From positions 1 to 38,145 of the IMG/VR virus record IMGVR_UViG_3300009181_003202: DNA of 38,145 nucleotides; one strand, 5' to 3'. Of this stretch, positions 2,829-35,459 are shown one piece after another. The translations under genes were made by a program, and so were the position numbers. Position 1 is the first letter of the stretch. Every line of letters starts with the position of its first letter. The stretch is from a virus. The notes below the pieces were generated by a model that had not been told where the DNA came from, made no database searches, and worked only from the letters and a program-made list of their open reading frames with translations.

Positions 2829-2856
2829 TTGACATCTCCTAAATATCTGTTATAAT
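2829..2856 (+). promoter_or_regulatory. Sigma-70 promoter of dsbA
   Basis: TTGACA (2829-2834), a 16-bp spacer and TATAAT (2851-2856) match both consensus hexamers fully. The expected start is near 2863, just before the AGGAGA ribosome-binding site (2865-2870). A TAAATA run (2840-2845) resembling a degraded late promoter lies between the hexamers. Confidence 0.85.
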
Positions 2857-2871
2857 AGTATTTTAGGAGAT
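2834..2871 (+). promoter_or_regulatory. Hairpin sequestering the dsbA RBS, promoter in loop
   Basis: ATCTCCTAAA (2834-2843) is the exact reverse complement of TTTAGGAGAT (2862-2871). The 3' arm contains the AGGAGA Shine-Dalgarno of dsbA. The -10 TATAAT sits in the 18-nt loop and the -35 touches the 5' arm. Read-through RNA from the upstream structural gene would fold and hide the RBS. RNA started at the internal promoter would begin near the 3' arm and stay open. Confidence 0.7.
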
Positions 2872-2875
2872 TTCT

Positions 2876-3136
2876 ATGTCAGCAAAAACATTCAACGGCG
2901 ATCAAAAGATCAAACTCACCCAAATCATCAATGAAGGCATGCAGGTTATGCATGAAATTGATACGCTACAAGGTGGCTTGACTGACACTATCAAAGCAGT
3001 GGCAGAAGAACTGGAAGTCAAACCTGCTATCCTGAAAAAGGCTATCAAATTGGCACACAAGGCCAGTTTTGGTCAAGAAAAACAAGATCATGAAACTCTT
3101 GAAACTATTTTAGAAACCGTTGGTAAAACCCTATAA
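2876..3136 (+). CDS. dsbA: DsbA-like late-transcription dsDNA-binding protein
   Basis: An 86-residue, almost wholly helical charged protein that matches the size and pattern of T4 DsbA and its homologues in T4-like marine phages (an EIDTLQGGL...TIKAVAEEL...KAIKLAHKA core). T4 DsbA binds DNA near late promoters and assists late transcription with gp33, gp45 and gp55. It lies just upstream of gene 43 and near gene 45, and the window contains NATAAATA late promoters, which agrees. The start has a strong RBS (AGGAGA, 5 nt upstream) enclosed in a hairpin with the promoter. The stop codon overlaps the next late promoter. Assignment rests on remembered family similarity. Confidence 0.65.
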   Translation: MSAKTFNGDQKIKLTQIINEGMQVMHEIDTLQGGLTDTIKAVAEELEVKPAILKKAIKLAHKASFGQEKQDHETLETILETVGKTL

Positions 3137-3139
3137 ATA
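3132..3139 (+). promoter_or_regulatory. T4-type late promoter TATAAATA
   Basis: An exact TATAAATA spans the dsbA stop codon and lies 70 nt upstream of gene 43. The 11-mer AAATATCTGTT beginning in it (3135-3145) also occurs at 2841-2851 upstream of dsbA, so the two regulatory regions look related. A late promoter before a polymerase gene is unexpected, so its activity needs proof. Confidence 0.5.
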
Positions 3140-3208
3140 TCTGTTCAGCAGACGAGTCGCTCACGTTACGAGCATGTATCACGGCTAACCGGCCACAAAC
3201 GGAGAACA

Positions 3209-5869
3209 ATGAGTTATATTGATGCACTATTTGATCGTGAGCACGATCGTATTCATACTGTAGAACGCCGCAATGGCGCAAGAGTCTACCGGGAATATCC
3301 AGCAAATTACATTTTCTATTATGATGATGCCCGAGGTAAATTCCAAAGCATATACGGCACACCCGTATCAAGATTTAGTACAAGAAACAACAAAGAGTTC
3401 CGCAAGGAAGTCCGCGCTCACAGCCATAAGCCGATTTATGAAAGCGACATCAATCCAATCTTTAGATGCCTTGAAGAAAACTACAAAGACCAAGATGCGC
3501 CTGAACTTCACACAGCGTTTTTTGACATTGAGGTGGCCTTTGATAAAGACCGCGGCTTCTCACCTGTATCAGACCCTTTTAATCCCATTACTGCGATTTC
3601 AGTCTACCTAGACTGGCTGGATCAATTGGTCACACTTGCTGTGCCTCCCAAACATCTCAGTTGGGACACTGCCCACGAACTGGTCCGAGACTTTGAGAAC
3701 ACCATCTTGTTTGCTGACGAAGCAGACATGATCAAAACATTTCTTGACTTGATTGATGATGCAGATGTGCTGAGTGGTTGGAACTCAGAAGGCTATGACA
3801 TTCCCTATACCGTGAACCGCTGTATTCGTGTGTTGAGCAAGGATGACACACGCAAATTCTGTTTGTGGGGGCAACTGCCCAAGAAGCGTATGTTTGAACG
3901 CTTTGGTGCTGAAAACGAAACCTATGACTTGATTGGGCGTGTGCATATGGACTATATGCAACTGTATCGCAAGTACACATACGAAGAACGTCACAGTTAT
4001 AGCCTGGATGCCATTTGTGAGTATGAACTGGGTGAGCGCAAGACACAGTTTGAAGGAACCCTGGATAGTTTATACAACCAACACTTCCGGACATTTATTG
4101 AGTACAACCGCCAAGATACATTGTTGATTGGTAAACTAGACAAGAAACTGCGCTTCTTGGATCTTGCCAATGAACTGGCACATGCCAATACTGTACTATT
4201 GCAGACCACCATGGGCGCTGTGGCTGTGACTGAGCAGGCCATCATCAACGAAGCACATGAACGTGGCATGGTTGTGCCCAATCGCAAGCAACGCCTTACA
4301 GATGAAGACACACAGGCCGCAGGTGCGTATGTTGCGTATCCCAAGAAAGGTGTGCATGAGTGGATCGGATCAGTTGACATCAACTCACTTTATCCATCGG
4401 CAATTCGTGCCATGAACATGGGTCCAGAGACTGTGGTTGGTCAACTGCGTCAGACCATGACTGATAGACTGATCAAAGCCAACATGGCCAAGGGACAGAG
4501 TTTTGCGGCGGCCTGGGAAGGTATCTTTGCCAGTTTAGAATACACAGCCGTGATGAATCAAGAGCGTGGCACTGAGATCACAATTGACTGGGAGTCGGGT
4601 GAAGAGTCTGTACACTCGGCCGCTGAGATCTGGACCATTATCTTTGATTCAAATCAACCTTGGATCCTCACTGCCAATGGCACTATTCTTACATTTGAGA
4701 AGAAGGGTATTATCCCTGGTTTACTGGAGCGTTGGTACCGTGAACGACAAGAACTACAGGCTCGGAAGAAAGAAACAAAAGATGCCAAAGAAATTGCATT
4801 CTGGGACAAACGACAACTGGTTAAAAAGATTAACCTCAACAGTCTCTACGGGGCTATTCTTAACCCGGGTTGTAGGTTCTTTGACAAACGTATTGGACAG
4901 TCAACAACACTTACTGGTCGTTCAATTGCCCGGCACATGGACGCTCATCTTAATGAGCTCATCACAGGCGAATACGACCATGTGGGAAAAGCAGTTATAT
5001 ATGGTGACACAGACTCGTGTTATTTCTCCGCATGGCCGGTCCTCAAGAAAGAAGTTGAAGAAGGCCGGATGGCATGGTCGAAAGAAACTTGTATTCAACT
5101 GTATGACAGCCTTGCTGAACAGGTCAACCAAAGTTTCCCTGGCTTCATGGAACAGGCTTTCCATTGTCCACGGGACATGGGTGAACTGATCAAGTGTGGT
5201 CGTGAAACTGTGGCAGATCGTGGCTTGTTTATTACCAAGAAGCGTTATGCTGTCAACGCCATTGATATCGAAGGCAAACGACTGGATGTCAACGGCGCAG
5301 TTGGCAAGACCAAGGCCACAGGACTTGATCTAAAACGATCAGACACCCCCAAAGTAATTCAAGACTTCTTGTTAGAAATTCTAAATAAACTACTTGCTGG
5401 TGCAGGTCGAGATGAGATTGTGGAACGTATTCGTGAATTCAAGTATGAGTTCAAAGAACGTTCGGGCTGGGAAAAAGGATCGCCCAAGCGTGTGAACAAC
5501 TTGACCAAGTACCAAGCAGAAGAAACTCGATTGGGCAAAGCAAACATGCCAGGTCATGTGCGGGCCGCAATTAACTGGAACAACATGCGCAAGATGAACA
5601 GCGACAACTACTCAATGGCCATTGTTGATGGTATGAAAACCATTGTGTGTAAACTCAAGTCAAATGCTCTGGGGTGGACCAGCATTGGCTATCCTACAGA
5701 TGAACAACGACTGCCCACATGGTTTACTGAGTTGCCGTTTGATGATTCGGAGATGGAAGCCACTGTGGTGGACGGCAAGGTTGATAACTTGTTGGGTGTG
5801 CTGGACTGGGATCTAGCATCAGCAACCAACACAGAAAATACATTTACTAGTTTATTTGATTTCGAATGA
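3209..5869 (+). CDS. 43: DNA polymerase, family B (T4 gp43 type)
   Basis: Replicative phage DNA polymerase with 3'-5' proofreading; its 886 residues are close to T4 gp43 (898). Exonuclease motifs are visible: Exo I FFDIEVAFD (about 104-112), Exo II with GWNSEGYDIPY, and Exo III with YNRQDTLL. Polymerase motif A is DINSLYPSAI (about 390), motif B KINLNSLYGA (about 538) and motif C YGDTDS (about 597). The C-terminus ends in a short acidic/aromatic tail (TSLFDFE), as expected for a clamp-binding peptide. The ATG follows CGGAGA with good spacing. The next gene starts inside the stop (ATGA), and the clamp gene is two genes away. No intein or intron is seen. Confidence 0.97.
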   Translation: MSYIDALFDREHDRIHTVERRNGARVYREYPANYIFYYDDARGKFQSIYGTPVSRFSTRNNKEFRKEVRAHSHKPIYESDINPIFRCLEENYKDQDAPELHTAFFDIEVAFDKDRGFSPVSDPFNPITAISVYLDWLDQLVTLAVPPKHLSWDTAHELVRDFENTILFADEADMIKTFLDLIDDADVLSGWNSEGYDIPYTVNRCIRVLSKDDTRKFCLWGQLPKKRMFERFGAENETYDLIGRVHMDYMQLYRKYTYEERHSYSLDAICEYELGERKTQFEGTLDSLYNQHFRTFIEYNRQDTLLIGKLDKKLRFLDLANELAHANTVLLQTTMGAVAVTEQAIINEAHERGMVVPNRKQRLTDEDTQAAGAYVAYPKKGVHEWIGSVDINSLYPSAIRAMNMGPETVVGQLRQTMTDRLIKANMAKGQSFAAAWEGIFASLEYTAVMNQERGTEITIDWESGEESVHSAAEIWTIIFDSNQPWILTANGTILTFEKKGIIPGLLERWYRERQELQARKKETKDAKEIAFWDKRQLVKKINLNSLYGAILNPGCRFFDKRIGQSTTLTGRSIARHMDAHLNELITGEYDHVGKAVIYGDTDSCYFSAWPVLKKEVEEGRMAWSKETCIQLYDSLAEQVNQSFPGFMEQAFHCPRDMGELIKCGRETVADRGLFITKKRYAVNAIDIEGKRLDVNGAVGKTKATGLDLKRSDTPKVIQDFLLEILNKLLAGAGRDEIVERIREFKYEFKERSGWEKGSPKRVNNLTKYQAEETRLGKANMPGHVRAAINWNNMRKMNSDNYSMAIVDGMKTIVCKLKSNALGWTSIGYPTDEQRLPTWFTELPFDDSEMEATVVDGKVDNLLGVLDWDLASATNTENTFTSLFDFE

Positions 5870-6810
5870 AACTCAGCGATATTGTTGCACGTTTAAATTT
5901 ACTTGATTCGCTTGATGTTGCGACTGAATGTGATATTGCCACGGGTACGTTAAGCCACATTGCACACGTGGTGACTGAACATGCTGATCCATATCAAACT
6001 GCCAAAGATAACATAGTAAAAACACACAATGAATTGATCAACAACATTGCAAAATTTTCTGCACAAGTTGAATCTCTAAAAAAAGAATTAAGATCAGAAA
6101 TCAAACAGCATGAACAAGAATATTTGGTTAATAGTTTACGTGTGTACCAAGAAGAAATGATTTACGATACCGTAGATGTTATTCTAAATAGACGTATGAG
6201 AATTGACAACGAGGATGATATTGTATTAAGAACACGTCTTAAAAATTTAACTGATTGGCGAATACCTGGTATGATCATAAGACCAGGAGTGGAAACATAT
6301 ATTGAAGATATGGTGCCGTTGGATCCGCTGTATGTAGTTGATCACGATCCGGAACTGATGAGACCAGCAATCAGCAAGTTCACACCAGAATATCAACGCA
6401 GATTGCGTGAGTATGTGATTGACGACTGGGCAGATGGACCTATTTTAAATAAATTCCCTGATAATCAGTTTGGTGCAATATTTGCCTATCACTATTTCAA
6501 TCACAAACCGATTCCAATCATACACAAATTTTTAGAAGAATTCTATAAAAAATTACGTCCCGGCGGTGGAGTTATTATGACCTACAACAATTGTGATCTT
6601 GCCAATGGCGTAGAACGTTCTGAACGAGTCTGGATGTTGTACACTCCACGTAAACTGATTGAACAACACGCTATCAATATTGGATTTGAGTTGATCGATG
6701 CTTATGACGGCAAAGGCGAGGTCAGTTGGTTAGAATTTAAAAAGCCCGGCGATTTGACCAGCCTACGAGGCGGGCAGACTCTAGCCAAAATAGTTGCAAA
6801 TTCGCAATAA
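5866..6810 (+). CDS. Methyltransferase-like protein with coiled-coil N-terminus
   Basis: The 314-residue protein overlaps gene 43 by ATGA, so it is probably translationally coupled. The first 120 residues are helical and charged (VESLKKELRSEIKQHEQEY), likely a coiled coil. The C-terminal half resembles the end of a class I SAM-dependent methyltransferase: VVDHDPEL, then FGAIFAYHYFNH, then FLEEFYKKLRPGGGVIMTYNN, the usual post-motif and motif III 'LRPGG' segment. A clear glycine-rich SAM motif I (GxGxG) is not obvious, so the SAM site may be degenerate. The substrate is unknown. Position between polymerase and clamp suggests a replication or DNA-modification role, which is inference. Confidence 0.5.
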   Translation: MKLSDIVARLNLLDSLDVATECDIATGTLSHIAHVVTEHADPYQTAKDNIVKTHNELINNIAKFSAQVESLKKELRSEIKQHEQEYLVNSLRVYQEEMIYDTVDVILNRRMRIDNEDDIVLRTRLKNLTDWRIPGMIIRPGVETYIEDMVPLDPLYVVDHDPELMRPAISKFTPEYQRRLREYVIDDWADGPILNKFPDNQFGAIFAYHYFNHKPIPIIHKFLEEFYKKLRPGGGVIMTYNNCDLANGVERSERVWMLYTPRKLIEQHAINIGFELIDAYDGKGEVSWLEFKKPGDLTSLRGGQTLAKIVANSQ

Positions 6811-6822
6811 ACCCTGTATACT
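6794..6822 (+). promoter_or_regulatory. Sigma-70 promoter of gene 45
   Basis: TTGCAA (6794-6799), a 17-bp spacer and TATACT (6817-6822), followed by the RBS TTAGGAGA and the ATG at 6842. No RBS-masking hairpin is seen here, unlike dsbA. Confidence 0.75.
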
Positions 6823-6841
6823 TTAAACTTAGGAGAAACTT

Positions 6842-7564
6842 ATGAGAGATTACTTGTTAGACTTGGTAGAACACACTTACGACCTTGGTTGTATTGATTT
6901 GGTTAAAATTGTTGGTGACACCAGCAAGACTGAAATTGTTGGCTTGGCAGAAGATCTGAGTGTGGTCATTCGCGGCAACTTTCACAACCCCACAGCAGAC
7001 TTTGTGGGCACATTTGGCATGCCTAACCTGGGCAAACTAAAGACTTTGTTGAACTTGCAAGAGTACAAGGAAGATGCCAAACTTGCCATTACCAAAGGCT
7101 CAACAGGTGAGCCAGATGGCATTAATTTTGAAAACAAAATTGGCGACTTTAAAAACAACTATCGTTTTATGACATCGGGTGTAGTAAGTGAGAAGTTAAA
7201 GACTGCCAAGATTCGCCCTGTGACATGGCACATTGAGTTTGAACCAACCAATGCGGCTATTCAACGAATGAAGTGGCAAATGAGCGCCAATGCCGAGGAG
7301 GCAAACTTCCAGGCCAAAACTGAAAACGGTGATCTTAAGTTTTTCTTTGGCGATCACTCAACACACTCAGGTAACTTTGTGTTCCATCCAGGTGTTAGTG
7401 GTCAATTGAAACGTGCATGGTCATGGCCTGCCAAACAGTTTGTGAGCATCATGGACTTGACTGGTGACAAGAAAGTACGCATCAGCGATGATGGTGCCGC
7501 AGAAATCACAGTTGATTCCGGCCTAGCAGTTTATCAATATCTATTACCAGCACAAAGCAAATAA
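6842..7564 (+). CDS. 45: Sliding clamp / DNA polymerase processivity factor (T4 gp45 type)
   Basis: The 240 residues compare with 228 in T4 gp45. Family features are visible: an N-terminal LDLVEHTYDLGCIDLVKI segment, the FGMPNLGKLKTLL region, and a C-terminal MDLTGDKKVRISDDGA...ITVDSGLAVYQYLLPA strand series typical of phage clamps. In T4 the trimeric ring tethers gp43 and also activates late transcription with gp33 and gp55, so this gene links replication to the late promoters seen here. It has its own sigma-70 promoter and a TTAGGAGA RBS. It ends one base into the ATG of the next gene. Confidence 0.85.
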   Translation: MRDYLLDLVEHTYDLGCIDLVKIVGDTSKTEIVGLAEDLSVVIRGNFHNPTADFVGTFGMPNLGKLKTLLNLQEYKEDAKLAITKGSTGEPDGINFENKIGDFKNNYRFMTSGVVSEKLKTAKIRPVTWHIEFEPTNAAIQRMKWQMSANAEEANFQAKTENGDLKFFFGDHSTHSGNFVFHPGVSGQLKRAWSWPAKQFVSIMDLTGDKKVRISDDGAAEITVDSGLAVYQYLLPAQSK

Positions 7565-9129
7565 TGACTGACCCTGTTGTTCAAGACAACTTAACTGCCA
7601 AGCAAAATGACTACGCTGTGTTCCTTCCGGCCATCAGCGGATTCTATGCTACATTCGTAGGCAAACAAAGGAATGAACCATATGTGGATCCAGCACGACT
7701 GCCTCAGGGCATTACGGATATGGAGCAACTTAACTGGCTCAACTCTAATAAGGCCTTGTTTCCTTATCGGTGGTCACTGTACTCAGGAGGCCATGCTAAC
7801 CTCGATCTTGCAAAACAAGACTGGTCTGAAGACATGGTCCGTAATCGTGAGGCCGGATCTTTCATACTTGGTGACTCAGGAGGTTTCCAGATTGCCAAGG
7901 GTCTTTGGGAAGGTGATTGGAAAGCCAACTCAGGTTGTCCTAAAGCCCAAAAGAAACGAAGTCTAATCTTGAACTGGCTGGACAATGTGGCCGACTATGG
8001 CATGATCTTGGATATCCCAACTTGGGTTATTCACGACAAGAAAGCATCCGCGGCATGCCAGATCACCACACTACAAGAAGCAGTGGACGCCACCAAGTTC
8101 AACAATGACTACTTCATGAAACACCGCAAAGGTGTGGCAAATGGTGGTGCCAAGTTCTTGAACGTGCTACAAGGTGACAATCATACTTCAGCGGATCAAT
8201 GGTATGAGACTATGAAGGAATACTGCGATCCTGCCAAGTATCCAGACACACACTTTGACGGTTGGTCCATGGGTGGACAGAACATGTGTGATGTACACCT
8301 GGTGCTTCGCAGACTGGTAGCACTACGCTATGACAATTTACTTCAAGAGGGCAAACACGATTGGATGCACTTCTTGGGAACCTCCAAACTGGAGTGGGCT
8401 GTTTTATTAACTGTAATCCAAAGGGCCGTAAGAAAATATGTCAATCCGCAATTCACCATCTCGTTTGACTGCGCCAGTCCGTTCCTTGCAACAGCAAACG
8501 GACAGGTCTACTTTGAAAATGTCTTTGAACACGATAGCAAATGGTCGTATCGCATGGCTCCTTCAGCCGACGACAAAAAGTATTCCACAGACACACGCAA
8601 GTGGGGAACAGGCGTAGTAGCAGATGGCATCTATCCACGCTGGGAAGATAGCCCACTAAGTGACTTGTTGAAGATGAAAGATATTTGTATCTACAAGCCC
8701 GGCGATCTAAATAAGATTGGCAAAGAAGGCAAGACATCCTGGGACAGTTTCTCATATGCTTTGCTCATGGGGCATAATGTTTGGATGCACTTGACCGCAG
8801 TACAAGAAGCCAACAGACGTTTTGATGCAGGAGAGTATCCTGCTATGATGCGTCGTAGCACCGGAGACTATGCCCGGTTTGAAGACATTGTGGAAGCAAT
8901 CTTTGCGGCACCAGATCGAGAGACTGCCGACGCTATCGTCGAAGAGTATGACACATATTGGATGGAGATTGTGGGCACACGAGGGTTCAAAGGCAAGAAG
9001 ACCAAGAATGCCCGCACTCAATTTAATGCATTGTTTGAATTCGAAGAAACTGAGACTATACAACCAACCGATGATAGTGTACAATTAGACACATCAGCAT
9101 TAGATCAATTAGAACATGAACAGACCTGA
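7564..9129 (+). CDS. dpdA: DpdA-type DNA guanine transglycosylase (TGT superfamily)
   Basis: Predicted to exchange guanine in phage DNA for a 7-deazaguanine base. The 521-residue protein has the TGT-barrel signatures: GDSGGFQ (about 103-109, compare DSGGFQ of bacterial TGT), GWSMGGQN (about 233), a FLGTS strand corresponding to the TGT MGVG segment, and DCASPF (about 302), the position of the catalytic aspartate. The CxCxxC zinc site of tRNA-TGT is not seen, as in phage DpdA proteins. folE, queD and queE in the same window supply the base, which strongly supports DNA rather than tRNA as target. It overlaps the clamp stop by one base and the next gene by 14. Which DpdA subfamily it belongs to I cannot tell. 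Confidence 0.85.
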   Translation: MTDPVVQDNLTAKQNDYAVFLPAISGFYATFVGKQRNEPYVDPARLPQGITDMEQLNWLNSNKALFPYRWSLYSGGHANLDLAKQDWSEDMVRNREAGSFILGDSGGFQIAKGLWEGDWKANSGCPKAQKKRSLILNWLDNVADYGMILDIPTWVIHDKKASAACQITTLQEAVDATKFNNDYFMKHRKGVANGGAKFLNVLQGDNHTSADQWYETMKEYCDPAKYPDTHFDGWSMGGQNMCDVHLVLRRLVALRYDNLLQEGKHDWMHFLGTSKLEWAVLLTVIQRAVRKYVNPQFTISFDCASPFLATANGQVYFENVFEHDSKWSYRMAPSADDKKYSTDTRKWGTGVVADGIYPRWEDSPLSDLLKMKDICIYKPGDLNKIGKEGKTSWDSFSYALLMGHNVWMHLTAVQEANRRFDAGEYPAMMRRSTGDYARFEDIVEAIFAAPDRETADAIVEEYDTYWMEIVGTRGFKGKKTKNARTQFNALFEFEETETIQPTDDSVQLDTSALDQLEHEQT

Positions 9130-9619
9130 ACATGAAAACGTCGACTTCTTTGTAGGTACAGAAGTAGAACGCACTCCAGCCTTTGGCCGACGCACTTTGT
9201 TTGTGGTTGGCGTCCAACCAACAGTGGAAATACTCAGCAGATTCCTTGGCAACGAATGCGAGCATATCTTTTTTGGTGCCAATCACAGTTTCCATCCTGA
9301 CAACAGGCTAGCGTGGCAACGCTGGGAAAGTATGATTGAACCATTCCTTCAAGACGGATACTTGTGTAGCCTGGACATTCCAATCACTCATGTGGATGAG
9401 TTCCATGATGGTCCGTTATGTGACTATAGAAACTTTGTGCCGCAAATTCGAGTAAGCCTACCCTATACAAAGTTGTGGAATTATAATACAATGTTAAAAA
9501 TAGATGACAAGGACTTTGCCGCTACCAACCCTGGTGTTTGGTGTCACAGTCTGCATGGCCTAATGAGCCGCGAAACATTTACTTCGTGGGATGACTACAA
9601 GCAGGATCAAAAATTATGA
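9116..9619 (+). CDS. Conserved phage protein next to dpdA, function unknown
   Basis: A 167-residue protein starting 14 bases inside the end of dpdA and overlapping the next gene by ATGA, so it belongs to the dpdA transcription unit. Visible features are VGTEVERTPAFGRRTLFVVGV near the N-terminus, FFGANHSFHP, and a C-terminal block ending NPGVWCHSLHGLMSRETFTSW. I have the impression of a family recurring in T4-like phages beside deazaguanine genes, but I cannot name it. No transmembrane segment or known catalytic motif is seen. A role in base modification or tailoring is inferred from position only. Confidence 0.6.
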   Translation: MNRPEHENVDFFVGTEVERTPAFGRRTLFVVGVQPTVEILSRFLGNECEHIFFGANHSFHPDNRLAWQRWESMIEPFLQDGYLCSLDIPITHVDEFHDGPLCDYRNFVPQIRVSLPYTKLWNYNTMLKIDDKDFAATNPGVWCHSLHGLMSRETFTSWDDYKQDQKL

Positions 9620-10068
9620 ACCAACGAGATCAAGCACTAACGGAACAACGTTCTAGAATCATGGGCCAAGCAGAACGTAAAATCTGGGTCACATTCCGCA
9701 AAGAAGGAATACATTGCTATCCTGCGGCTGCCACTGATCCTGCTCTGGCCACCGGTGACGAGTATGATGTGAGTTTCCTTGGCTCACCACATCGTCACAT
9801 ATTCCACTTTAGAGTATGGATTGATGTGTTACACAACGATAGAGACATTGAGTTTATCCAGTTCAAACGCTGGTTAGAAAATTTGTACAAGGACGGCATC
9901 CTACAACTTGATCACAAGAGTTGTGAAATGATGGCCGATGACTTGTACGCAGAAATTGCTGGTCGATATCCTGACCGTGCAGTGTGGATTGAGGTAGCCG
10001 AAGACGGTGAGAACGGTGCCTTGATCAAGTATGAACTTTCTCGCCCTAGTCTGTCAATTAAAATTTAA
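9616..10068 (+). CDS. Possible T-fold (QueD-like) protein in the dpdA unit
   Basis: The 150-residue protein overlaps the previous gene by ATGA. The order of elements recalls QueD/6-pyruvoyl-tetrahydropterin synthase: a His cluster followed by a beta strand (SPHRHIFHFRVWIDV), an acidic EFIQFKRWLENLY helix, LDHKSCEMMADDLYAEI where QueD has LDHxxLN...PTxExLA, and a final strand with glutamates (VWIEVAEDGENGALIKYE). It lacks the CxxxHGH zinc/cysteine motif of the true QueD at 14257, so it would not do the same reaction. It may be a catalytically altered paralogue acting on the deazaguanine base, or unrelated. The assignment is by eye and tentative. Confidence 0.4.
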   Translation: MNQRDQALTEQRSRIMGQAERKIWVTFRKEGIHCYPAAATDPALATGDEYDVSFLGSPHRHIFHFRVWIDVLHNDRDIEFIQFKRWLENLYKDGILQLDHKSCEMMADDLYAEIAGRYPDRAVWIEVAEDGENGALIKYELSRPSLSIKI

Positions 10069-10077
10069 GGAAATCAA

Positions 10078-13770: not shown

Positions 13771-14171
13771 TTAGTTATGCAACCTTAAAAGCCGCCCAGG
13801 ATGGCAAAGTAGCACCTTGGACTAATACGGTACCTGAAATGAGCAACACTCATATCGCTGTGTTTCGTGATGCTTATCCTGTGGCAGAAGGTCACCTGTT
13901 GTTTGTGCCACGTGCCAACACTGACGAATCTATTGTGGTGGCCATGGGCATGGCTTTGCTGACTGGTCGTCAAATGGTGCAGAACAATCAATGCGATGCG
14001 TTCAACATTGGTTTGAATGCAGGAGTAGCCGCAGGACAGACAGTGATGTACCCACACGTACACTTGATACCAAGAATGCACGGAGACACTGCTGATCCTG
14101 TTGGTGGTGTACGAGGTGTCATACCCGGACAGGCCAACTACAAAACTGACACCTATCAACAACCTGAATAG
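13767..14171 (+). CDS. HIT-family hydrolase-like protein
   Basis: The 134-residue protein, coupled to folE by ATGA, shows the HIT pattern: HIAVFRDAYPVAEGHLLFVPR near the start, FNIGLNAGVAAGQTV in the middle, and the histidine triad region as YPHVHLIPR. Compared with Fhit-type HVHVHVLPR the first His is Tyr, while the middle (nucleophile) and last His remain. HIT enzymes hydrolyse or transfer nucleotidyl groups. Here it could clean up a nucleotide by-product of the folE pathway or of sugar-nucleotide synthesis, both only inference. The stop codon lies in the 5' arm of the next hairpin. Confidence 0.8.
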   Translation: MISYATLKAAQDGKVAPWTNTVPEMSNTHIAVFRDAYPVAEGHLLFVPRANTDESIVVAMGMALLTGRQMVQNNQCDAFNIGLNAGVAAGQTVMYPHVHLIPRMHGDTADPVGGVRGVIPGQANYKTDTYQQPE

Positions 14172-14186
14172 ATAATAAATATTCAG
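14164..14186 (+). promoter_or_regulatory. Hairpin with late promoter AATAAATA after the HIT gene
   Basis: CTGAATA (14164-14170) and TATTCAG (14180-14186) form a perfect 7-bp inverted repeat around a 9-nt loop. AATAAATA (14174-14181) fits the NATAAATA late-promoter pattern and lies across the loop and 3' arm. It precedes queD by about 75 nt and does not itself cover an RBS. Confidence 0.5.
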
Positions 14187-14208
14187 CGGTCTTGGACATC
14201 ATTCCCGC

Positions 14209-14257
14209 TTTACAAACTCTGCTGTCTATGCTATAATTTAACATAGGAGAAACAGCA
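14209..14257 (+). promoter_or_regulatory. queD sigma-70 promoter inside an RBS/start-masking hairpin
   Basis: TTTACA (14209-14214), a 17-bp spacer and TATAAT (14232-14237). TGCTGT+CTATG (14220-14230) is complementary to CATAG (14242-14246) and ACAGCA (14252-14257), with GAGAA bulged. The -10 box is in the loop and the 3' arm includes part of the AGGAGA RBS and the A of the queD ATG. RNA starting near 14244 would lack the 5' arm. Confidence 0.65.
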
Positions 14258-25743: not shown

Positions 25744-25955
25744 GTATACACATCAATAGATTTGTAGACAGCATCAAAGCACATGAATCACGCGGTCAGC
25801 GTGATTTTGCTATGACCATGCGAGAAGCCAAAGATTTACATAGTGATATTACAAAACTATTACTGACACTGGAGTCCTTGCATACCCGAAATACACAGCC
25901 AAAAGAAGAAACTGTTACGGTAGAATTGAGCGGTGGCAGTTTCAAAACCACGTAG
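25740..25955 (+). CDS. Small helical conserved phage protein
   Basis: The ATG at 25740 overlaps the MazG-like stop (ATGA) and gives 71 residues. Charged helical sequence (RDFAMTMREAKDLHSDITKLLLTLESLH) ends in a short strand-like tail. No function recognised. The stop lies at the 5' arm of the next hairpin (25951-25957). Confidence 0.6.
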   Translation: MSIHINRFVDSIKAHESRGQRDFAMTMREAKDLHSDITKLLLTLESLHTRNTQPKEETVTVELSGGSFKTT

Positions 25956-25981
25956 TTATTGGGATAAATAAACTACGGAGA
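25951..25981 (+). promoter_or_regulatory. Hairpin with late promoter GATAAATA in the loop, masking an RBS
   Basis: CGTAGTT (25951-25957) pairs perfectly with AACTACG (25971-25977). The 13-nt loop contains GATAAATA (25963-25970). The 3' arm ends in the first bases of the CGGAGA RBS (25976-25981) of the gene at 25987. Late RNA starting near 25977 would lack the 5' arm. Confidence 0.6.
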
Positions 25982-25986: not shown

Positions 25987-26283
25987 ATGTCGAGACCCAA
26001 ACCAAATGTGTTGATTGAACACACTGACAAAGCAACTTACAAGACCGAACAAGTGTTGGCTTCCGAAGGAGTGTGGGCGGTGTTTTTTGATACCAAACCA
26101 ATCAACTTGAAGACCTCCAACATGCTCACACAGTACCCCGGCCCCAAGTACAAGAAGGTTTCATTCTCCAATCCCGGTCATGCCAAGAACCTAGCACGTA
26201 AACTCAACACACAATTCAAGACCGACAAGTTCACAGTCGTGCTCTTGACGCAGGGGGCGCAAGTATACCCCGATGTCAAATAA
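25987..26283 (+). CDS. Conserved phage protein, late-promoter controlled, unknown function
   Basis: The 98-residue basic protein comprises VLASEGVWAVFFDTKPINLK, YPGPKYKKVSFSNPGHAKNLARKLN and a final strand KFTVVLLTQGAQVY. It looks like a compact alpha/beta domain, possibly nucleic-acid binding. RBS CGGAGA precedes the ATG and is partly enclosed in the promoter-bearing hairpin. It overlaps the next gene by 11 bases. No function recognised. Confidence 0.65.
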   Translation: MSRPKPNVLIEHTDKATYKTEQVLASEGVWAVFFDTKPINLKTSNMLTQYPGPKYKKVSFSNPGHAKNLARKLNTQFKTDKFTVVLLTQGAQVYPDVK

Positions 26284-27486: not shown

Positions 27487-27558
27487 ATGATTGAAATGTT
27501 CTTATTCCTGGCCATTACCTTTGTGATCAAAGTTTGGTTCATCAACCGATACATGTAA
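27487..27558 (+). CDS. 23-residue single-span membrane peptide
   Basis: MIEMFLFLAITFVIKVWF then INRYM: one hydrophobic helix with a basic end, preceded by TAAGGAAACGTC (AAGGA RBS at 27476-27480) and starting 10 bases after the previous stop. The gene at 27569 follows at similar spacing. Tiny membrane proteins are common in early phage regions. Expression is unproven. Confidence 0.5.
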   Translation: MIEMFLFLAITFVIKVWFINRYM

Positions 27559-27568
27559 AGAGAAACAT

Positions 27569-27751: not shown

Positions 27752-27753
27752 CC

Positions 27754-28522: not shown

Positions 28523-28548
28523 CATATACGTAAGCATAAGTAACTGGT

Positions 28549-30495: not shown

Positions 30496-30520
30496 CAAAA
30501 ACTTAGCAATATTATATAAT
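30492..30520 (+). promoter_or_regulatory. Sigma-70 promoter of the gene at 30550
   Basis: TTGACA (30492-30497, containing the TGA stop of the radical SAM gene), a 17-bp spacer and TATAAT (30515-30520). An 11-codon upstream frame begins at 30536 and overlaps the 30550 start. Whether it is translated is unknown. Confidence 0.8.
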
Positions 30521-30549
30521 AAGAATCCATAAAACATGAAAGGCCGTAT

Positions 30550-30930
30550 ATGGAATTCTTACCGGTATTAGAACTGATCGATCGACTCTGCATTGCCAGA
30601 GTAAAACATGCTCGTACTCAAGGTGCAAATCAAGTTGAACTTGATTGGTACGAGGACAAGTTCCGCCAACTCCCCCAAAGTGTAGAACTGGATGCAGATA
30701 TTCAAGCAATGACTGACATCCACCATGCCATCTGGGATCTGGAGTGGCAACTGAAATCTGGAGTGGAGCAGATGTTGAGCCTACAAGAGATTGGTCGTAG
30801 AGCAATTGCCATTCGCGATTTCAACAACAAGCGGATCGCTTACAAAAACTCCATTGCCACTATCTTGGGGCATCCTGTGCGGGAAATCAAACAGGACCAC
30901 TTGGCAGATGGCACTGTTGACACTAAATAG
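30550..30930 (+). CDS. Helical phage protein, unknown function
   Basis: The 126-residue, mostly helical protein (LELIDRLCIARVKHARTQGANQVELDWYEDKF; IQAMTDIHHAIWDLEWQLKSGVEQM; RRAIAIRDFNNKRIAYKNSI) lacks membrane segments and recognised motifs. The pattern of charged helices resembles DIP13/MazG-like helical bundles only superficially. It has a strong sigma-70 promoter and an AAAGG RBS. Confidence 0.6.
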   Translation: MEFLPVLELIDRLCIARVKHARTQGANQVELDWYEDKFRQLPQSVELDADIQAMTDIHHAIWDLEWQLKSGVEQMLSLQEIGRRAIAIRDFNNKRIAYKNSIATILGHPVREIKQDHLADGTVDTK

Positions 30931-30933
30931 GTA

Positions 30934-30979
30934 AAAGCACTGGACTTTGATAAATAAAAGCATTGGAGTCCAGTGCTTT
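30934..30979 (+). promoter_or_regulatory. 13-bp hairpin with late promoter in its loop before the nuclease gene
   Basis: AAAGCACTGGACT (30934-30946) and AGTCCAGTGCTTT (30967-30979) are perfect reverse complements. The 20-nt loop holds GATAAATA (30949-30956). The 3' arm ends at the base before the ATG at 30980 and overlaps the GGAG (30965-30968). Late RNA starting near 30963 keeps only the 3' arm. This matches the design described for T4 I-TevI and other T4 late genes. Confidence 0.75.
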
Positions 30980-31537
30980 ATGATATGCCTACATTGCTCG
31001 AAAGAGTTTACAAGTAAAATTGGTTATTCTAACCATGTCCGCAGATGCCCGAAAAATCCAGATAGGATACATGAAGGATTAACGGACGCAGGCAGAGAAC
31101 GTATTCGTCAGTCTACTATTGCTCAAAACAAAAAACAATGGAACGACCCTGAGTTTAGAATCAAGCATCAAGAATCAATGAAACGTGCTGTGCAGGAGAA
31201 CCCAGAATCGTATAGTTCATCAAATAGAGGCAGGACCAAACAAATAATAGTTGACGGAATAACACTACAAGGGCAGTGGGAAGTTGATTTTTATATGTGG
31301 GCAAAAGAAGCCGGACTGAATCCACAAAGACCGTCAAAGGCATTCAGATATGTTTGGAATGGTGATAGGTGGTATCATCCAGATTTTTACATTGAGTCTA
31401 AGGACTTATATGTTGAAGTCAAAGGATATGAAACGGATAGAGATCGATCAAAGTGGTCGCAATTTTCTGAAAAGTTGTGTATAATCAAAGAAAAAGAAAT
31501 AAAGCAAATCCGTGAAGGTTGTTTTGTGGGACTTTAG
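30980..31537 (+). CDS. Homing-type endonuclease, zinc finger plus PD-(D/E)XK
   Basis: 185 residues from ATG 30980. An N-terminal C2HC finger (CLHCSKEFTSKIGYSNHVRRC) is followed by a basic helical linker (RERIRQSTIAQNKKQWNDPEFRIKHQESMKRAV), typical of homing-nuclease DNA-binding tails. The C-terminal domain has FRYVWNGDRWYHPDFYIES and LYVEVKGYET, i.e. PD...ExK of the PD-(D/E)XK fold. It lies immediately before two tRNA genes and its stop falls within the first tRNA, consistent with a mobile gene lodged at a tRNA locus. Translation appears restricted to late transcripts by the hairpin. Confidence 0.75.
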   Translation: MICLHCSKEFTSKIGYSNHVRRCPKNPDRIHEGLTDAGRERIRQSTIAQNKKQWNDPEFRIKHQESMKRAVQENPESYSSSNRGRTKQIIVDGITLQGQWEVDFYMWAKEAGLNPQRPSKAFRYVWNGDRWYHPDFYIESKDLYVEVKGYETDRDRSKWSQFSEKLCIIKEKEIKQIREGCFVGL

Positions 31538-31599
31538 CATAGAGGTAGTGCCGAGAACTCATAATTCTTAAGGGACTGGTTCGAATCCAGTAGGTCCCA
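31528..31599 (+). tRNA. tRNA with anticodon CAT (Met or Ile2)
   Basis: A cloverleaf can be drawn: acceptor GGGACTT/AGGTCCC (one G-U), a D-stem GCA/TGC with AGAGGTA loop, anticodon stem GAGAA/TTCTT with loop CTCATAA (anticodon 31560-31562), and a T-arm ACTGG-TTCGAAT-CCAGT. G1-C72 pairs, so it is not an initiator. Whether it is elongator Met or a lysidine-modified Ile tRNA cannot be told. CCA is not encoded. The nuclease stop codon (31535-31537) lies inside it. Confidence 0.85.
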
Positions 31600-31620
31600 C
31601 AAAGCAACTTGCACCATTCG

Positions 31621-31695
31621 CTGGCGTTCGTTCAACGGATAGGACATCTTTCTTCTAAAGAGATAATAGTGGTTCGATTCCACTACGCCGGACCA
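31621..31695 (+). tRNA. tRNA-Arg (anticodon TCT)
   Basis: Acceptor CTGGCGT/ACGCCGG with one wobble, an anticodon stem TCTTT/AGAGA with loop CTTCTAA, T-arm with GTGG-TTCGATT-CCAC, discriminator A and an encoded CCA (31693-31695). It reads AGA, a codon frequent in these phage genes. It lies 21 bases after the CAT tRNA. Confidence 0.9.
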
Positions 31696-31701
31696 AATAC
31701 T

Positions 31702-32223
31702 ATGACCAAAATAAATTCCAGTCCCGAACGTCATACCTTTCAAGAACAAAGTTACATCGACCGATGCCGGGAAGAAGGTAACAATCCCAGCGAGGATTAC
31801 TTGAATATGTTCAAGTCTCGGCGTGAGCAGGATCAAGAACGCATGGCCGATCCTGCCTGGCAAAAAAACAACATGGAATACGACTTGCGCAGTACCCCGT
31901 GGATCTGTGACAAAGTCAAGAGCAATAAAACTTACGCTCAGAACTTGTATGCGGCCATGTGTAACATGGAGTTTGTGAAAAACGAGGTCTGGCCTTTGCT
32001 CAAGGATCAACGCTGGAGTGCCAGTTGGCGCTATGCAGGCGGCATTGTGGCTGACATGCGCGAATCGGGCGACTACATTGAGTGGTACTGCTCGGGCATA
32101 CAGGGTGAGCCTGATGAGGACTGGGTAGATCTAGGGCATGTGCCCGAAGGCACTGTAACGGATCAAATACGCGAGGATTTGTTCCGATTGGGATGGATTC
32201 CAAAAGATTCGAATGATGTTTGA
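31702..32223 (+). CDS. Conserved phage protein, unknown function
   Basis: The ATG at 31702, just after the Arg tRNA, gives 173 residues; a longer frame runs through the tRNA and is not credible. Features: SYIDRCREEGNNPSEDYLNMFKSRREQDQERMADPAWQKNN, NKTYAQNLYAAMCNMEFVKNEVWPLLKDQRWSASWR, GGIVADMRESGDYIEWYCSGI and a C-terminal LGWIPKD. It has the look of a T4-like family of unknown role. A GATAAATA motif overlaps its stop codon. Confidence 0.65.
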   Translation: MTKINSSPERHTFQEQSYIDRCREEGNNPSEDYLNMFKSRREQDQERMADPAWQKNNMEYDLRSTPWICDKVKSNKTYAQNLYAAMCNMEFVKNEVWPLLKDQRWSASWRYAGGIVADMRESGDYIEWYCSGIQGEPDEDWVDLGHVPEGTVTDQIREDLFRLGWIPKDSNDV

Positions 32224-32229
32224 TAAATA
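32222..32229 (+). promoter_or_regulatory. Late promoter GATAAATA before the DctP-like gene
   Basis: GATAAATA overlaps the preceding stop codon. The ATG at 32258 follows with a CTAGGAGA RBS. No strong hairpin encloses this promoter. Confidence 0.55.
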
Positions 32230-32257
32230 ATTGTACAAAACCCCCTAGGAGATATAC

Positions 32258-33232
32258 ATGTCAAAACCCCGTAAAATCAGATGGCTTATTGCACATCAGC
32301 CACAAGAGTTATTTGTGCGTACCGCTCGAGCATTCAGCGAAGAACTCAATAAAACTTGTGCCGGTGAACTAGAAGTTGAAATTTTAACCTATCCAGAATA
32401 TCGCGAAAAATATCGTTCTATTCCCAACCTAGAAATCCTTGATCAAGCCGATGTTGACATTGACGCCGCTATCAAGAGTTTTTGGCAAGCACTGTTCGAT
32501 AGTGAAATAGAAATGAGCCAAATCCAAGTTGGACAAGTTGGAGAATTATACTCTGATTTCCATGCTCTGGACATGCCATTTATATTTGACAATCACGATC
32601 ATGTGAGCGAAACATTAGAAGGCCCAATAGGTCAAGAACTGTGCTACAACCTGGGACAGAAGTCAGGTGTGACTGGATTGGCATTTACCTATTCCGGCGG
32701 CTATCGTGTGATTGGCAGTGACGAACCTATCCTAACTTTGGATGAGTTGAAAAACAAACGCATTGTTGTTCAAAACCCAATCACACTAGGCACCACTATT
32801 GAAAGCATGGGCGGAAAAGCAATTCCGATAAAACCATGCCTTTGGAACAAATACGACTTGATAGGCAAAGGTGAAGCCGATGCTGTGGAAACGACCTATC
32901 TACGATTCAACGGCAAACATGTGCTCAAAACCAATCATTCCATGTTCATGACCACTATTGTGGTCAGCAACAAGTTTTGGGATTCATTGACTGACCAACA
33001 ACAGCAAGCATTTAGTCAGGCTGCACTGGTGGCATCACGCAAAGAGCGTGAATGGAGCATTCAAGATGGTGAAACATTCGAAGCCAATGCCGTTAAGAAT
33101 GGTATTACCATTACTGAAATCTCTAAGCAAGACACTGAGGCATTAAAGCACAAGTCTCAAATGACTTATGTCAAAACCAAATATTTCTTCACACCTGATT
33201 TAGTAAAACGCATTAGACAAACTCGACACTAA
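32258..33232 (+). CDS. TRAP-type solute-binding protein (DctP family) without signal peptide
   Basis: 324 residues, the size of a mature DctP-type periplasmic binding protein. Family landmarks: an initial strand (IRWLIAHQPQELFVRTARAFSEEL), a helix before QVGELYSDFHALDMPFIFDNHDHV, GVTGLAFTYSGGYRVIGSDEPI, LDELKNKRIVVQNPITLGTTIESMGGKAIPI (the carboxylate-binding Arg region) and KTNHSMFMTTIVVSNKFWDSL. Normal DctP proteins have an N-terminal signal; here the frame starts directly at strand one with MSKPRKIRW, so it should stay in the cytoplasm or enter virions. No TRAP membrane subunits are nearby. A late promoter and strong RBS (TAGGAGA) precede it and a terminator follows. Confidence 0.8.
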   Translation: MSKPRKIRWLIAHQPQELFVRTARAFSEELNKTCAGELEVEILTYPEYREKYRSIPNLEILDQADVDIDAAIKSFWQALFDSEIEMSQIQVGQVGELYSDFHALDMPFIFDNHDHVSETLEGPIGQELCYNLGQKSGVTGLAFTYSGGYRVIGSDEPILTLDELKNKRIVVQNPITLGTTIESMGGKAIPIKPCLWNKYDLIGKGEADAVETTYLRFNGKHVLKTNHSMFMTTIVVSNKFWDSLTDQQQQAFSQAALVASRKEREWSIQDGETFEANAVKNGITITEISKQDTEALKHKSQMTYVKTKYFFTPDLVKRIRQTRH

Positions 33233-33234
33233 AA

Positions 33235-33254
33235 AAAGCGGCTTCGGCCGCTTT
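33235..33254 (+). terminator. Intrinsic terminator after the DctP-like gene
   Basis: AAAGCGGC-TTCG-GCCGCTTT: an 8-bp perfect stem with a UUCG tetraloop, followed by CTTAT. The T-run is short but stem and loop are very stable. A late promoter follows 2 bases later. Confidence 0.85.
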
Positions 33255-33256
33255 CT

Positions 33257-33264
33257 TATAAATA
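33257..33264 (+). promoter_or_regulatory. Late promoter TATAAATA upstream of the first Bug gene
   Basis: An exact TATAAATA right after the terminator. It would give a 5' leader of about 140 nt before the Bug-type gene at 33414. The leader (33265-33413) holds no gene that I can support. Confidence 0.65.
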
Positions 33265-33366
33265 TTTCTGTAACGCCAGCAACAGGCTGACGTCGGTATT
33301 TCCAGTGACGCCTGGGGTAGTAACCCTTTTACTGACATAACTATGCTCAGAACGCCGCACCGTATG

Positions 33367-33408
33367 TAGACCTCCTACTAGCAATTGTGTATAATAGACT
33401 TTTAGGAG
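33367..33408 (+). promoter_or_regulatory. Sigma-70 promoter and weak RBS-masking repeat of the first Bug gene
   Basis: TAGACC (33367-33372), a 17-bp spacer and TATAAT (33390-33395). CTCCTA (33372-33377) complements TAGGAG (33403-33408), the RBS, with the -10 in a 25-nt loop. Only 6 bp, so the hairpin is less certain than the others. Confidence 0.5.
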
Positions 33409-33413
33409 AAACC

Positions 33414-34298
33414 ATGATCAAAAAATTCACACAATTCATTTTTGCTTTGGCATTTTCGGCCACAGTATTTGCCGGAGACCCAATCACTATTGTTGTTCCA
33501 ACACCGCCAGGTGGTGCAATTGATATCACTGCACGTAGTTTATCAAAGGCATTGATGAACAAGGGACATGACAACGTGGTGGTATATCACCCCGGTGCCA
33601 ACGGAGACATTGCTCTGAACATTGCTGTGGAAAAACGAGACAATATTATATTTGTTGCAAGTTCTGCAAACTTTGTATTTTCCAATGTGTTGCTCAATAG
33701 AGAAAACATCTATGCCACAAAAACACAACTGCTAGGACCATCTGTTACCAACCCAATGGTTTTTATCACTCCCGAATCTGGTGAAGTCAAAACGTTCCGA
33801 GAACTGATTGAATCAGCAAAGAAAAAAGAAACTGTGTGTGGTGTCAGCAACAGCCACGGTGAAATCGAACTCAAACAAATCAACTCCACCTACGGCACTA
33901 AATTTGTACCAGTGCCCTACAAAGGAACAGGCCAGATGATTCCGGACATTGTGGGTGGTCATACTCCCTGTGGCTACGATCAGATTGCGGCGTACACTGG
34001 ATTAGAAGGCAAAGTAAAATTCCTTGCATCCAGCAAGGCTGTGCGTAGTGACATTCCTGCCATGAGTACTGTGTTGCCAAAATATCAATTTGAGACTTGG
34101 TATGCCACAGCAATTCCCAACAACAGCAATTTGTTGAAGAATGCAGAATTGATCAGCATTATCAAAACATGGAACCAGGATGCAGAACTGACCAAACCTC
34201 TTACAGAAAGAAGTTTTGTAGTGGTCAAAGCAGATGCTGACTTGAATGCCAGGGCCGTCAAAGAAACTGAATACTACAGAGATCAACTTAAAAAATAA
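33414..34298 (+). CDS. Exported Bug/TctC-family solute-binding protein (first copy)
   Basis: 294 residues from ATG 33414 after AGGAGAAACC. The N-terminus is a clear Sec signal (MIKKFTQFIFALAFSATVFA, cleavage before GDP). The mature protein starts ITIVVPTPPGGAIDITARSLSKAL, the Bug-family PPGGxxD-AR element, followed by YHPGANGDIALNIA (the NxPGAxG loop) and VPYKGTGQMIPDIVGGH, matching the YxGxxxxxxDLxxG motif of the binding site. Such proteins bind carboxylates for tripartite tricarboxylate transporters and are abundant in Burkholderiales. No TctA/TctB is here, so it would have to work with host permeases or serve another purpose. Confidence 0.85.
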   Translation: MIKKFTQFIFALAFSATVFAGDPITIVVPTPPGGAIDITARSLSKALMNKGHDNVVVYHPGANGDIALNIAVEKRDNIIFVASSANFVFSNVLLNRENIYATKTQLLGPSVTNPMVFITPESGEVKTFRELIESAKKKETVCGVSNSHGEIELKQINSTYGTKFVPVPYKGTGQMIPDIVGGHTPCGYDQIAAYTGLEGKVKFLASSKAVRSDIPAMSTVLPKYQFETWYATAIPNNSNLLKNAELISIIKTWNQDAELTKPLTERSFVVVKADADLNARAVKETEYYRDQLKK

Positions 34299-34299
34299 C

Positions 34300-35415
34300 A
34301 TGGTATCATATCAAGTAAACGGGCAACATTACAACAATGTGTTTCTAGCCCTGCGAGATTGCTGGAAAAACAATCACGAACTTAAATTTTACTGTTATGA
34401 CTATGAGTTTGATCAATTTGATTGGACTCTGGAACCCGAAGCATCGCTAGACTTCTTGATGACGCAACATGCTCTTGCCTTGCGTGAGAAATATGAGCGA
34501 CTGATTCTGTTATGGAGTGGCGGCACTGACAGTCATACTATCTACAACATTTTTAAACGTAACAATATTCACATTGACGAACTGATCATCAAGGCCGGAG
34601 AAGATTCAGAAATGTTTCCCGAGCGCAATGTATACTGGATCCAAAATAATCACTGGGATCCAACCACAATCATCACACGCTACGATGATCACGACACTGA
34701 CCTGCGACTGATTGATTTGCCCGACGAAGACTGGGTATGGAAGAACAAAGGCGACCTACTCAAATACGGCAACACAAGTTCTGCAGATGCTGTGAAATTT
34801 CTGTGCGAAAAAAATCACGCCGGGCACACATGGAAAGCCATAGGTGGCTACGAAAAACCCAGACTGATCTATCGTGACGGTGCTTGGTATCATAGACAAC
34901 TCAGCATGGTGCTACAACCTACAATGGGCCATGATTATATTGAACATTTTTTCTTTGAGCCATTGATTGCAATCAAACAAGCACACATGGTCAAACGTGC
35001 GGTTAAAAACATCATTAAACAAACTGCACAACCGTTGTACAGTAATGACTGGGCTGAGTCCAAATGGGACAAAGATCCTGCAGGATACCGTGCCTGGGCC
35101 ACTGCTTGCGGAAGACACGACGAAGTTTATATCGGAGTCAGCCACACACAAAAAATTGGCAACGAATCTTTTGATCAACTGCAACTACAGGTACACGGTG
35201 ACTGGCGCAATGTACACAGTTCTGATCGACATCTGCTTCATGACTTGTCCGACAACAATCCGGCAGCGGTAAACTATCTCAAAGGATTTCATAATTTGAC
35301 CAGTGAGTTTGGATTTACCAATTGGTTACGGGACAACGGCTGGTTTAGATCTGGCGACATGCGTTTTAGCAGTTTGAAATTTACATGGTCAAAGGAGTAC
35401 TGTATCGGTCCATGA
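34300..35415 (+). CDS. PP-loop ATP pyrophosphatase-type protein
   Basis: 371 residues from ATG 34300, 1 base after the Bug stop. RLILLWSGGTDSHTIYNIFKRN (SGGTDS about 73-78) is the PP-loop motif of enzymes that adenylate a carboxylate or carbonyl (asparagine synthetase, GuaA, QueC, TilS). The rest is not typical for any of them: no QueC-type C-terminal zinc cysteines, and a long C-terminal half with MGHDYIEHFFFEPL and FDQLQLQVHGDW. It may be an amide- or thio-forming enzyme. As it is not QueC-like, it probably does not complete preQ0 synthesis, though this cannot be excluded. Confidence 0.65.
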   Translation: MVSYQVNGQHYNNVFLALRDCWKNNHELKFYCYDYEFDQFDWTLEPEASLDFLMTQHALALREKYERLILLWSGGTDSHTIYNIFKRNNIHIDELIIKAGEDSEMFPERNVYWIQNNHWDPTTIITRYDDHDTDLRLIDLPDEDWVWKNKGDLLKYGNTSSADAVKFLCEKNHAGHTWKAIGGYEKPRLIYRDGAWYHRQLSMVLQPTMGHDYIEHFFFEPLIAIKQAHMVKRAVKNIIKQTAQPLYSNDWAESKWDKDPAGYRAWATACGRHDEVYIGVSHTQKIGNESFDQLQLQVHGDWRNVHSSDRHLLHDLSDNNPAAVNYLKGFHNLTSEFGFTNWLRDNGWFRSGDMRFSSLKFTWSKEYCIGP

Positions 35416-35424
35416 CCAGTGGAT

Positions 35425-35459
35425 TTTTAACTACTGGGCTATAAATACAGTAGTTAGGA
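35425..35459 (+). promoter_or_regulatory. Hairpin masking an RBS with late promoter TATAAATA in its loop
   Basis: TAACTACTG (35428-35436) pairs perfectly with CAGTAGTTA (35448-35456), extendable by two T-G wobbles and a T-A pair to 35425/35459. The 11-nt loop contains TATAAATA (35440-35447). AGGA (35456-35459), the RBS of the small gene at 35467, is in the extended 3' arm. Confidence 0.75.

Follow-up and report, generated by a model that had tools for sequence, protein, structure and literature searches.

Promoters inside leader hairpins of a T4-like giant phage fragment, with a probable fold-back switch at dsbA

The DNA analysed here, which we call the window, is an entire freshwater viral record of 38,145 bases (IMG/VR record IMGVR_UViG_3300009181_003202) from the T4-like giant-phage group. 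Its nearest DNA polymerases in cultured phages are those of Sinorhizobium phage Phosso (51%) and Agrobacterium phage Atu_ph07 (45%); megablast of positions 1-25000 against phage records matched nothing, and relatives lie on many IMG/VR contigs, the largest of 383 kb. Ahead of several genes in the window, among them dsbA, tctC and a nuclease gene, an inverted repeat lies on promoter-like sequence (Table 1). A sequence-only reading had seen in these repeats one recurrent device, in which a hairpin hides the ribosome-binding site (RBS) of RNA reading in from upstream and RNA from the internal promoter escapes by losing the 5' arm. Every repeat it listed is present, yet they do not form one device: there are hairpins with sigma-70-type promoters, hairpins with late promoters, and a pseudoknot before queD. 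We think it likely that dsbA, and by analogy tctC, has its promoter inside an RNA fold-back switch, that the other, late cases are of the classical form, and that queD is not a case.

The dsbA and tctC leaders

The spacer between the -35 and -10 boxes of the dsbA promoter is complementary to the region of the Shine-Dalgarno (SD) sequence. The promoter was matched in 105 of 113 dsbA relatives. Close relatives carry the SD complement in the spacer that follows TTGAC, and inside the window's clade the arms are nearly invariant; in distant relatives the letters of the arms differ and the pairing stays, with TCTCCTAAA/TTTAGGAGA, ACTTCTTAG/CTAAGGAGT, TTTCTTG/CAAGGAG, CCTTGTGATATAGT/ACTGTGTCACAAGG and CTTCTTGTTGAGG/CTTCAACAAGGAG at the same place. 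We took SD accessibility as the predicted probability of an unpaired SD, in read-through RNA and in the gene's own RNA, with the start of the latter placed 7 nucleotides past the -10 box by assumption, not by mapping. For dsbA it rises from 0.00 in read-through RNA to 0.63 in own RNA.

The complementarity was also put to a re-pairing test, in which each leader was folded with its native 5' flank and with flanks swapped in from other relatives; 19 coding windows from the same sequences, run identically, gauged the effect of shared descent. Native dsbA leaders folded at -9.73 kcal/mol and swapped ones at -6.10 +/- 0.40 (z = -9.2; n = 36 at 90% clustering), and clustering at lower thresholds gave z = -7.1 (80%, n = 23) and z = -3.9 (70%, n = 9). 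The coding controls lay between -2.8 and +2.7, and the value for the region upstream of the polymerase was +2.4. The same layout is found in the cultured Pseudomonas phage PA5oct, whose DsbA (about 41% protein identity) has a distant match to dsbA of Acinetobacter phage Ac42. Its leader reads TTGACT-AACTCCGTTTACACTAG-TATAAT, and TAACTCCGTT pairs with AACGGAGTTA, with the SD in the 3' arm, TATAAT in the loop and letters unrelated to those of the window. The same DsbA occurs in PA5oct, Paride and other cultured P. aeruginosa phages, and in Phosso the dsbA leader has a nested GTTCCT/AGGAAC pair with a TATAAA-type -10 box. The covariation and the PA5oct layout thus support the silencing logic first proposed for dsbA, which is the strongest and a real case of a promoter in a hairpin, and its hairpin is probably a working switch.

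In the mechanism that we favour, RNA reading in from the co-directional upstream gene would contain both arms, fold and hide the SD. RNA from the sigma-70-type promoter would start about 7 nucleotides past TATAAT and, the 5' arm being formed by the promoter spacer, would lack that arm and be open to translation. The upstream gene, which has a weak lysozyme/transglycosylase-type match, is probably late to judge by sequence, and the interval between it and dsbA holds no evident U-run terminator. Early RNA alone, not late read-through, would then be the source of DsbA, because the internal promoter is of host type, and hence early, and the upstream gene looks late. This would be the reverse of what is seen at T4 e, soc and I-TevI.

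At tctC, which the sequence-only reading had placed among its weaker examples, the layout resembles that of dsbA and SD accessibility goes from 0.02 in read-through RNA to 0.68 in own RNA; the silencing logic is plausible here as well. Three relatives are available, two of them with an identical protein, and the hairpin is kept in the single independent one, L552. The gene lies downstream of a strong terminator-like hairpin followed by a late-type motif at 33257, and RNA starting from that motif would carry the tctC hairpin. The surroundings of dsbA and of tctC both suggest that late RNA would be the silenced RNA. The fragment has two TctC-like solute-binding genes, at 33414-34298 and 36652-37545.

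Table 1. Promoters, leader structures and genes in the window
Feature	Position	Strand	Details and evidence
Sigma-70-type dsbA promoter	2829-2856	+	TTGACA 2829-2834, 16-nucleotide spacer, TATAAT 2851-2856; sequence
dsbA 5' arm ATCTCCTAAA (anti-SD)	2834-2843	+	Within promoter spacer; complementarity retained with changed letters in relatives
dsbA 3' arm TTTAGGAGAT	2862-2871	+	Holds SD AGGAG 2865-2869
dsbA-like double-stranded-DNA-binding/late-transcription regulator, 86 amino acids	2876-3136	+	phrog_639 'transcriptional regulator', E = 2.3e-9; phrog_12534
Late promoter AATAAATA upstream of queD leader	14174-14181	+	Inside CTGAATA 14164-14170/TATTCAG 14180-14186; no RBS
queD pseudoknot	14185-14226	+	P1 AGCGG 14185-14189/CCGCT 14205-14209; P2 GACA 14195-14198/TGTC 14223-14226
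queD repeat adjoining SD	14226-14246	+	CTATG 14226-14230/CATAG 14242-14246
Leader of 98-amino-acid gene	25951-25977	+	CGTAGTT 25951-25957/AACTACG 25971-25977 around late promoter GATAAATA 25963-25970
Conserved 98-amino-acid protein	25987-26283	+	598 relatives among the first 600 pattern matches listed
Nuclease leader	30934-30979	+	13-bp repeat 30934-30946/30967-30979 around GATAAATA 30949-30956; SD TGGAG 30964-30968
Homing-endonuclease-like endonuclease, 185 amino acids	30980-31537	+	phrog_15137 endonuclease, E = 5.8e-20
tctC leader	33372-33408	+	CTCCTA 33372-33377, TATAAT 33390-33395, TAGGAG 33403-33408 (SD in 3' arm); sequence; kept in L552
TctC-like solute-binding protein gene	33414-34298	+	Pfam PF03401, E = 6.5e-8
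Leader of 59-amino-acid gene	35425-35459	+	TTTTAACTACTG 35425-35436/CAGTAGTTAGGA 35448-35459 around TATAAATA 35440-35447
59-amino-acid open reading frame (ORF)	35467-35646	+	11 relatives

Late-promoter hairpins and the queD leader

By their sequences, the nuclease gene, the 59-amino-acid gene and, as a moderate case, the 98-amino-acid gene carry the classical T4-type hairpin, with a putative late promoter (NATAAATA) between the arms. dsbA and tctC lack this late motif and have TATAAT instead. The SD is predicted to be masked in the longer RNA of the nuclease and 59-amino-acid genes (0.02 each), and accessibility in own RNA reaches 0.31 for the nuclease, a partial release, and 0.89 for the 59-amino-acid gene. 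Judged singly against dinucleotide shuffles, as proposed along with the original idea, these two hairpins stand out (P < 0.02 and about 0.02, respectively), and those of the 98-amino-acid gene (0.22) and at 14174 (0.17) do not. Silencing is plausible at the nuclease and 59-amino-acid genes.

Counting G-U and loop pairs, the nuclease leader has 18 paired positions. Its arms are mostly retained in close relatives, and the distant relative L262 has an unrelated hairpin, CTCCGTTG/CAACGGAG, that surrounds GATAAATA and covers its SD. The 3' end of the nuclease gene overlaps a transfer RNA gene, tRNA-Met (31528-31600), relatives L260, L261 and L262 adjoin apparent tRNA pieces, and a tRNA arm is a possible source of the hairpin. 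The 59-amino-acid ORF matched no Pfam or PHROG family; its hairpin is retained in L251 and gone in L247. In the same region, positions 35634-35949 hold a permuted, betaproteobacteria-type transfer-messenger RNA gene (RF04321, RF01850), which ARAGORN did not report.

The 98-amino-acid protein also matched no Pfam or PHROG family, and the 5' arm of its leader contains the TAG stop codon of the upstream gene. The arms vary among relatives (CGTAG/CTACG, CCTAG/CTAGG, CATAG/CTATG, CTATATTT/AAATATAG), and one clade has the start codon within the arm. The position preceding TAG, set against the one following CTA, is G-C in 16 cases, C-G in four, A-T in three and unpaired in four, giving 23 pairs of three types. 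We grade this covariation as moderate, because the re-pairing z of -4.5 is nearly equalled by the worst of the 19 coding controls (-4.4) and drops to -2.7 with eight representatives. Masking is likewise partial, accessibility going from 0.54 in read-through RNA to 0.87 in own RNA, and the gene bears out the proposed device in part. In L196 and L201 the late promoter lies a few nucleotides from the ATG of this gene, and its RNA would be nearly leaderless. As described earlier, the hairpin at 14164 carries AATAAATA and no RBS, and the site at 37572 is a 5-6-bp match. Elsewhere, GTCTCCG/CGGAGAC around GATAAATA before a 477-amino-acid gene of PA5oct (about position 135019, L567) is a candidate T4-type late hairpin, and at G001:C1:14121-14148 (also in G011, G017 and G018) divergent late-promoter motifs lie back to back, with starts 20 bp apart, an arrangement that several relatives retain.

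The queD leader had been presented as a clear sigma-70 case, and we rejected it as such. Its SD is unmasked in read-through RNA (0.47, and 0.57 in own RNA), a pseudoknot is conserved, relatives (L085-L164) have late or sigma-70-like promoters just upstream of P1, and some window-type leaders, like the other groups, lack the loop TATAAT. Since the promoters lie upstream and the loop TATAAT is not universal, we treat it as a riboswitch-like leader. The 5-bp P1 pairs in every one of the 43 distinct leaders, and two-sided changes number 13 (AGCGG/CCGCT, AGAGG/CCTCT, AGTGG/CCACT, TGCGG/CCGCA), and most leaders form P2, whose loop and tail letters co-vary (GGCA/TGCC, GACA/TGTC, GGCT/AGCC, GGCTT/AAGCC, GGCG/CGCC) in an alignment made by eye and ambiguous in several rows. 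The gene belongs to the queuosine/preQ0 pathway, and with its putative H-type pseudoknot, P1 of about 5 bp, A-rich tail and a conserved C preceding the 3' strand of P1 the leader resembles the preQ1-I riboswitch. It differs in a longer loop and in a 3-5-bp P2 with other letters, and Rfam, preQ1 families included, gave no match at E values up to 10 (L108) or up to 5 (the window stretch), for which reason we do not assign it to preQ1-I. For queD, a metabolite-sensing, preQ1-I-like pseudoknot that governs the RBS, in place of promoter choice, is the somewhat favoured explanation.

Spread among relatives and rival explanations

Across 11 related genomes, we counted a gene as a predicted switch when SD accessibility was at most 0.1 in read-through RNA and at least 0.5 in own RNA. 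Genes with a sigma-70-like promoter nearby qualified in 18 of 214 cases (8.4%), compared with 14 of 900 promoterless genes (1.6%; Fisher p = 2.4e-6), and in a flank-swap test 9 of 224 reached p <= 0.01 where 2.2 were expected. Use of the arrangement with sigma-70-like promoters, suggested from the window, is thus enriched in relatives. A genome-wide spread of the late-promoter form was not borne out: 3 of 98 such genes qualified, which is not significant, and in a genome-wide shuffle for late promoters 19 of 205 reached p <= 0.05 against 10 expected, with no clear excess because promoterless genes also exceeded expectation (41 of 600 against 30). The promoter-in-hairpin arrangement is found at a minority of genes, and the earlier phrase 'at so many genes' was too strong. 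Covariation, also proposed as a check, is clear at dsbA and weak at the 98-amino-acid gene, does not bear out the device at queD, and has few relatives to draw on at the nuclease, 59-amino-acid and tctC genes.

Several observations weigh against a fold-back switch at dsbA and against its spread. The promoterless control genes differ in base composition, the genes come from a crude ORF finder, homologues across the 11 genomes were counted separately, and one queD-type leader is among the 18; the recurring homologues, the simple gene calls and that leader make the true figure somewhat lower. In PA5oct none of the 21 scored genes with sigma-70-like promoters qualified, dsbA going unflagged perhaps through its start call. 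The re-pairing z handles kinship by clustering only, and its controls cover shared descent in part. Many dsbA relatives keep the promoter without the hairpin (L041, L043, L048, L052, L053 and the L025-L033 groups), and Atu_ph07, Salicola phage SCTP-2 and Vibrio phage 2.275.O have no dsbA hairpin; being absent from many relatives, the hairpin is not essential. Absence of the hairpin together with an upstream terminator was seen at L038 and in Vibrio phage 2.275.O, a suggestive, untidy pattern from single loci only. Shuffling the 16-17-nucleotide spacer alone gave weak single-site values (p = 0.045 for window-type dsbA), a stretch too constrained to inform, and the late status of the upstream gene depends on its weak lysozyme-type match.

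One rival explanation is that the repeat is an intrinsic terminator of the upstream RNA with the next promoter packed inside, SD hiding being secondary or absent. It suits phage dnaJ, a gene reached through the top hits among relatives (L390-L469) and not found in the window. A stem of at least 8 bp starts in or 5' of the -10 box in 32 of 42 dnaJ representatives, and in 25 of these 32 a U-run stands at its 3' end. At two positions of the stem every one of the four Watson-Crick pair types occurs, and the re-pairing z is -13.5, where the controls lie between -2.5 and +1.5. In many dnaJ leaders an SD is absent near the start codon as well as in and after the 3' arm, and the natural reading is therefore a terminator with the next promoter inside; in a few relatives (e.g., L426) the start codon lies in the 3' arm. 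The stable stem and U-run are those of an intrinsic terminator, and what sets the leader apart from an ordinary one is the downstream gene's -10 box in the loop and 5' arm. dnaJ thus appears to have a sister arrangement: a terminator-like hairpin that covaries and whose loop or arm contains the -10 box. In the window, termination is an unlikely account, since the dsbA, tctC, nuclease, 59-amino-acid and 98-amino-acid hairpins have long loops and no U-run after the 3' arm.

Less probable still is chance, by which AT-rich leaders, purine-rich SDs and TATAAT or TAAATA boxes readily form short repeats and the good ones were picked. The sites at 14174, the 98-amino-acid gene and 32222 are unremarkable singly, late-promoter genes lack a clear genome-wide excess, and the 98-amino-acid z is hardly beyond its worst control; the covariation at dsbA and dnaJ, the shuffles at the nuclease and 59-amino-acid genes and the sigma-70 enrichment argue the other way. 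Chance is improbable for dsbA and dnaJ and still applicable to the 98-amino-acid, 14164, 37572 and tctC sites. A palindrome bound by a repressor dimer, which for dsbA could be the DNA-binding protein DsbA, is very unlikely: palindromes over -10 boxes are typical of operators, I-TevI represses its own late promoter (PMC2988022) and the dsbA arms hardly change in the window's clade, but arm letters vary freely in relatives with complementarity kept, which speaks against an operator because it should keep its letters, and some pairs are G-U and one arm follows the SD.

Comparison with known systems

If the fold-back reading of dsbA holds, leader folding would keep early and late expression of one strand apart with no need for a repressor, the spacer of the promoter doubling as the silencing arm. 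The T4 device would be extended from late genes to host-type promoters, genes of this kind could be sought by a sequence rule, and dnaJ would have its terminator and promoter combined in a very compact element. More tentatively, T4-like giant phages might have recurrent insulated host-type promoters, in which a hairpin holding the -10 box silences read-through by hiding the RBS (dsbA, tctC) or by termination (dnaJ). Early proteins would then not be made from late RNA that runs across such genes, a mirror image of the T4 late-gene hairpins. A literature search, incomplete in coverage and weak as evidence, returned no paper on promoters inside terminators or on sigma-70 fold-back in phages. The use of a host-type promoter in a phage device of this kind, the dsbA covariation and the terminator arrangement of dnaJ appear to be new; an earlier description is possible.

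The T4 precedent invoked by the sequence-only reading is correct: at the late genes e, soc, 49 and I-TevI an RBS-masking hairpin contains the late promoter (PMC3014915; PMC2988022), and further RBS-masking late hairpins are those of segB, Aeh1 mobE and I-TevII/III. As is predicted for the window, the SD or start is hidden in RNA from an upstream promoter, and RNA from the internal promoter lacks the 5' arm. The T4 cases are late genes on early or middle RNA, and the nuclease of the window fits the T4 homing-endonuclease type directly (PMC2988022). dsbA and tctC differ from T4 in having a sigma-70-type promoter and in that the silenced RNA would be late read-through; apparently, a known T4 principle is here extended to sigma-70-type promoters with reversed timing.

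A similar logic is that of fold-back inhibition of the IS10 and IS50 transposases, where a sigma-70 promoter lies in an inverted repeat and read-in RNA masks the RBS, which the transposase gene's own RNA does not. dsbA shares the sigma-70-type promoter within the hairpin, and its complementarity is under selection, as the re-pairing result indicates. In IS10 and IS50 the repeat is the transposon end, whereas the dsbA hairpin is a gene leader in lytic phages, not an insertion-sequence end, and its arms change freely between relatives. dsbA would work like the IS10/IS50 fold-back system without being a member of it.

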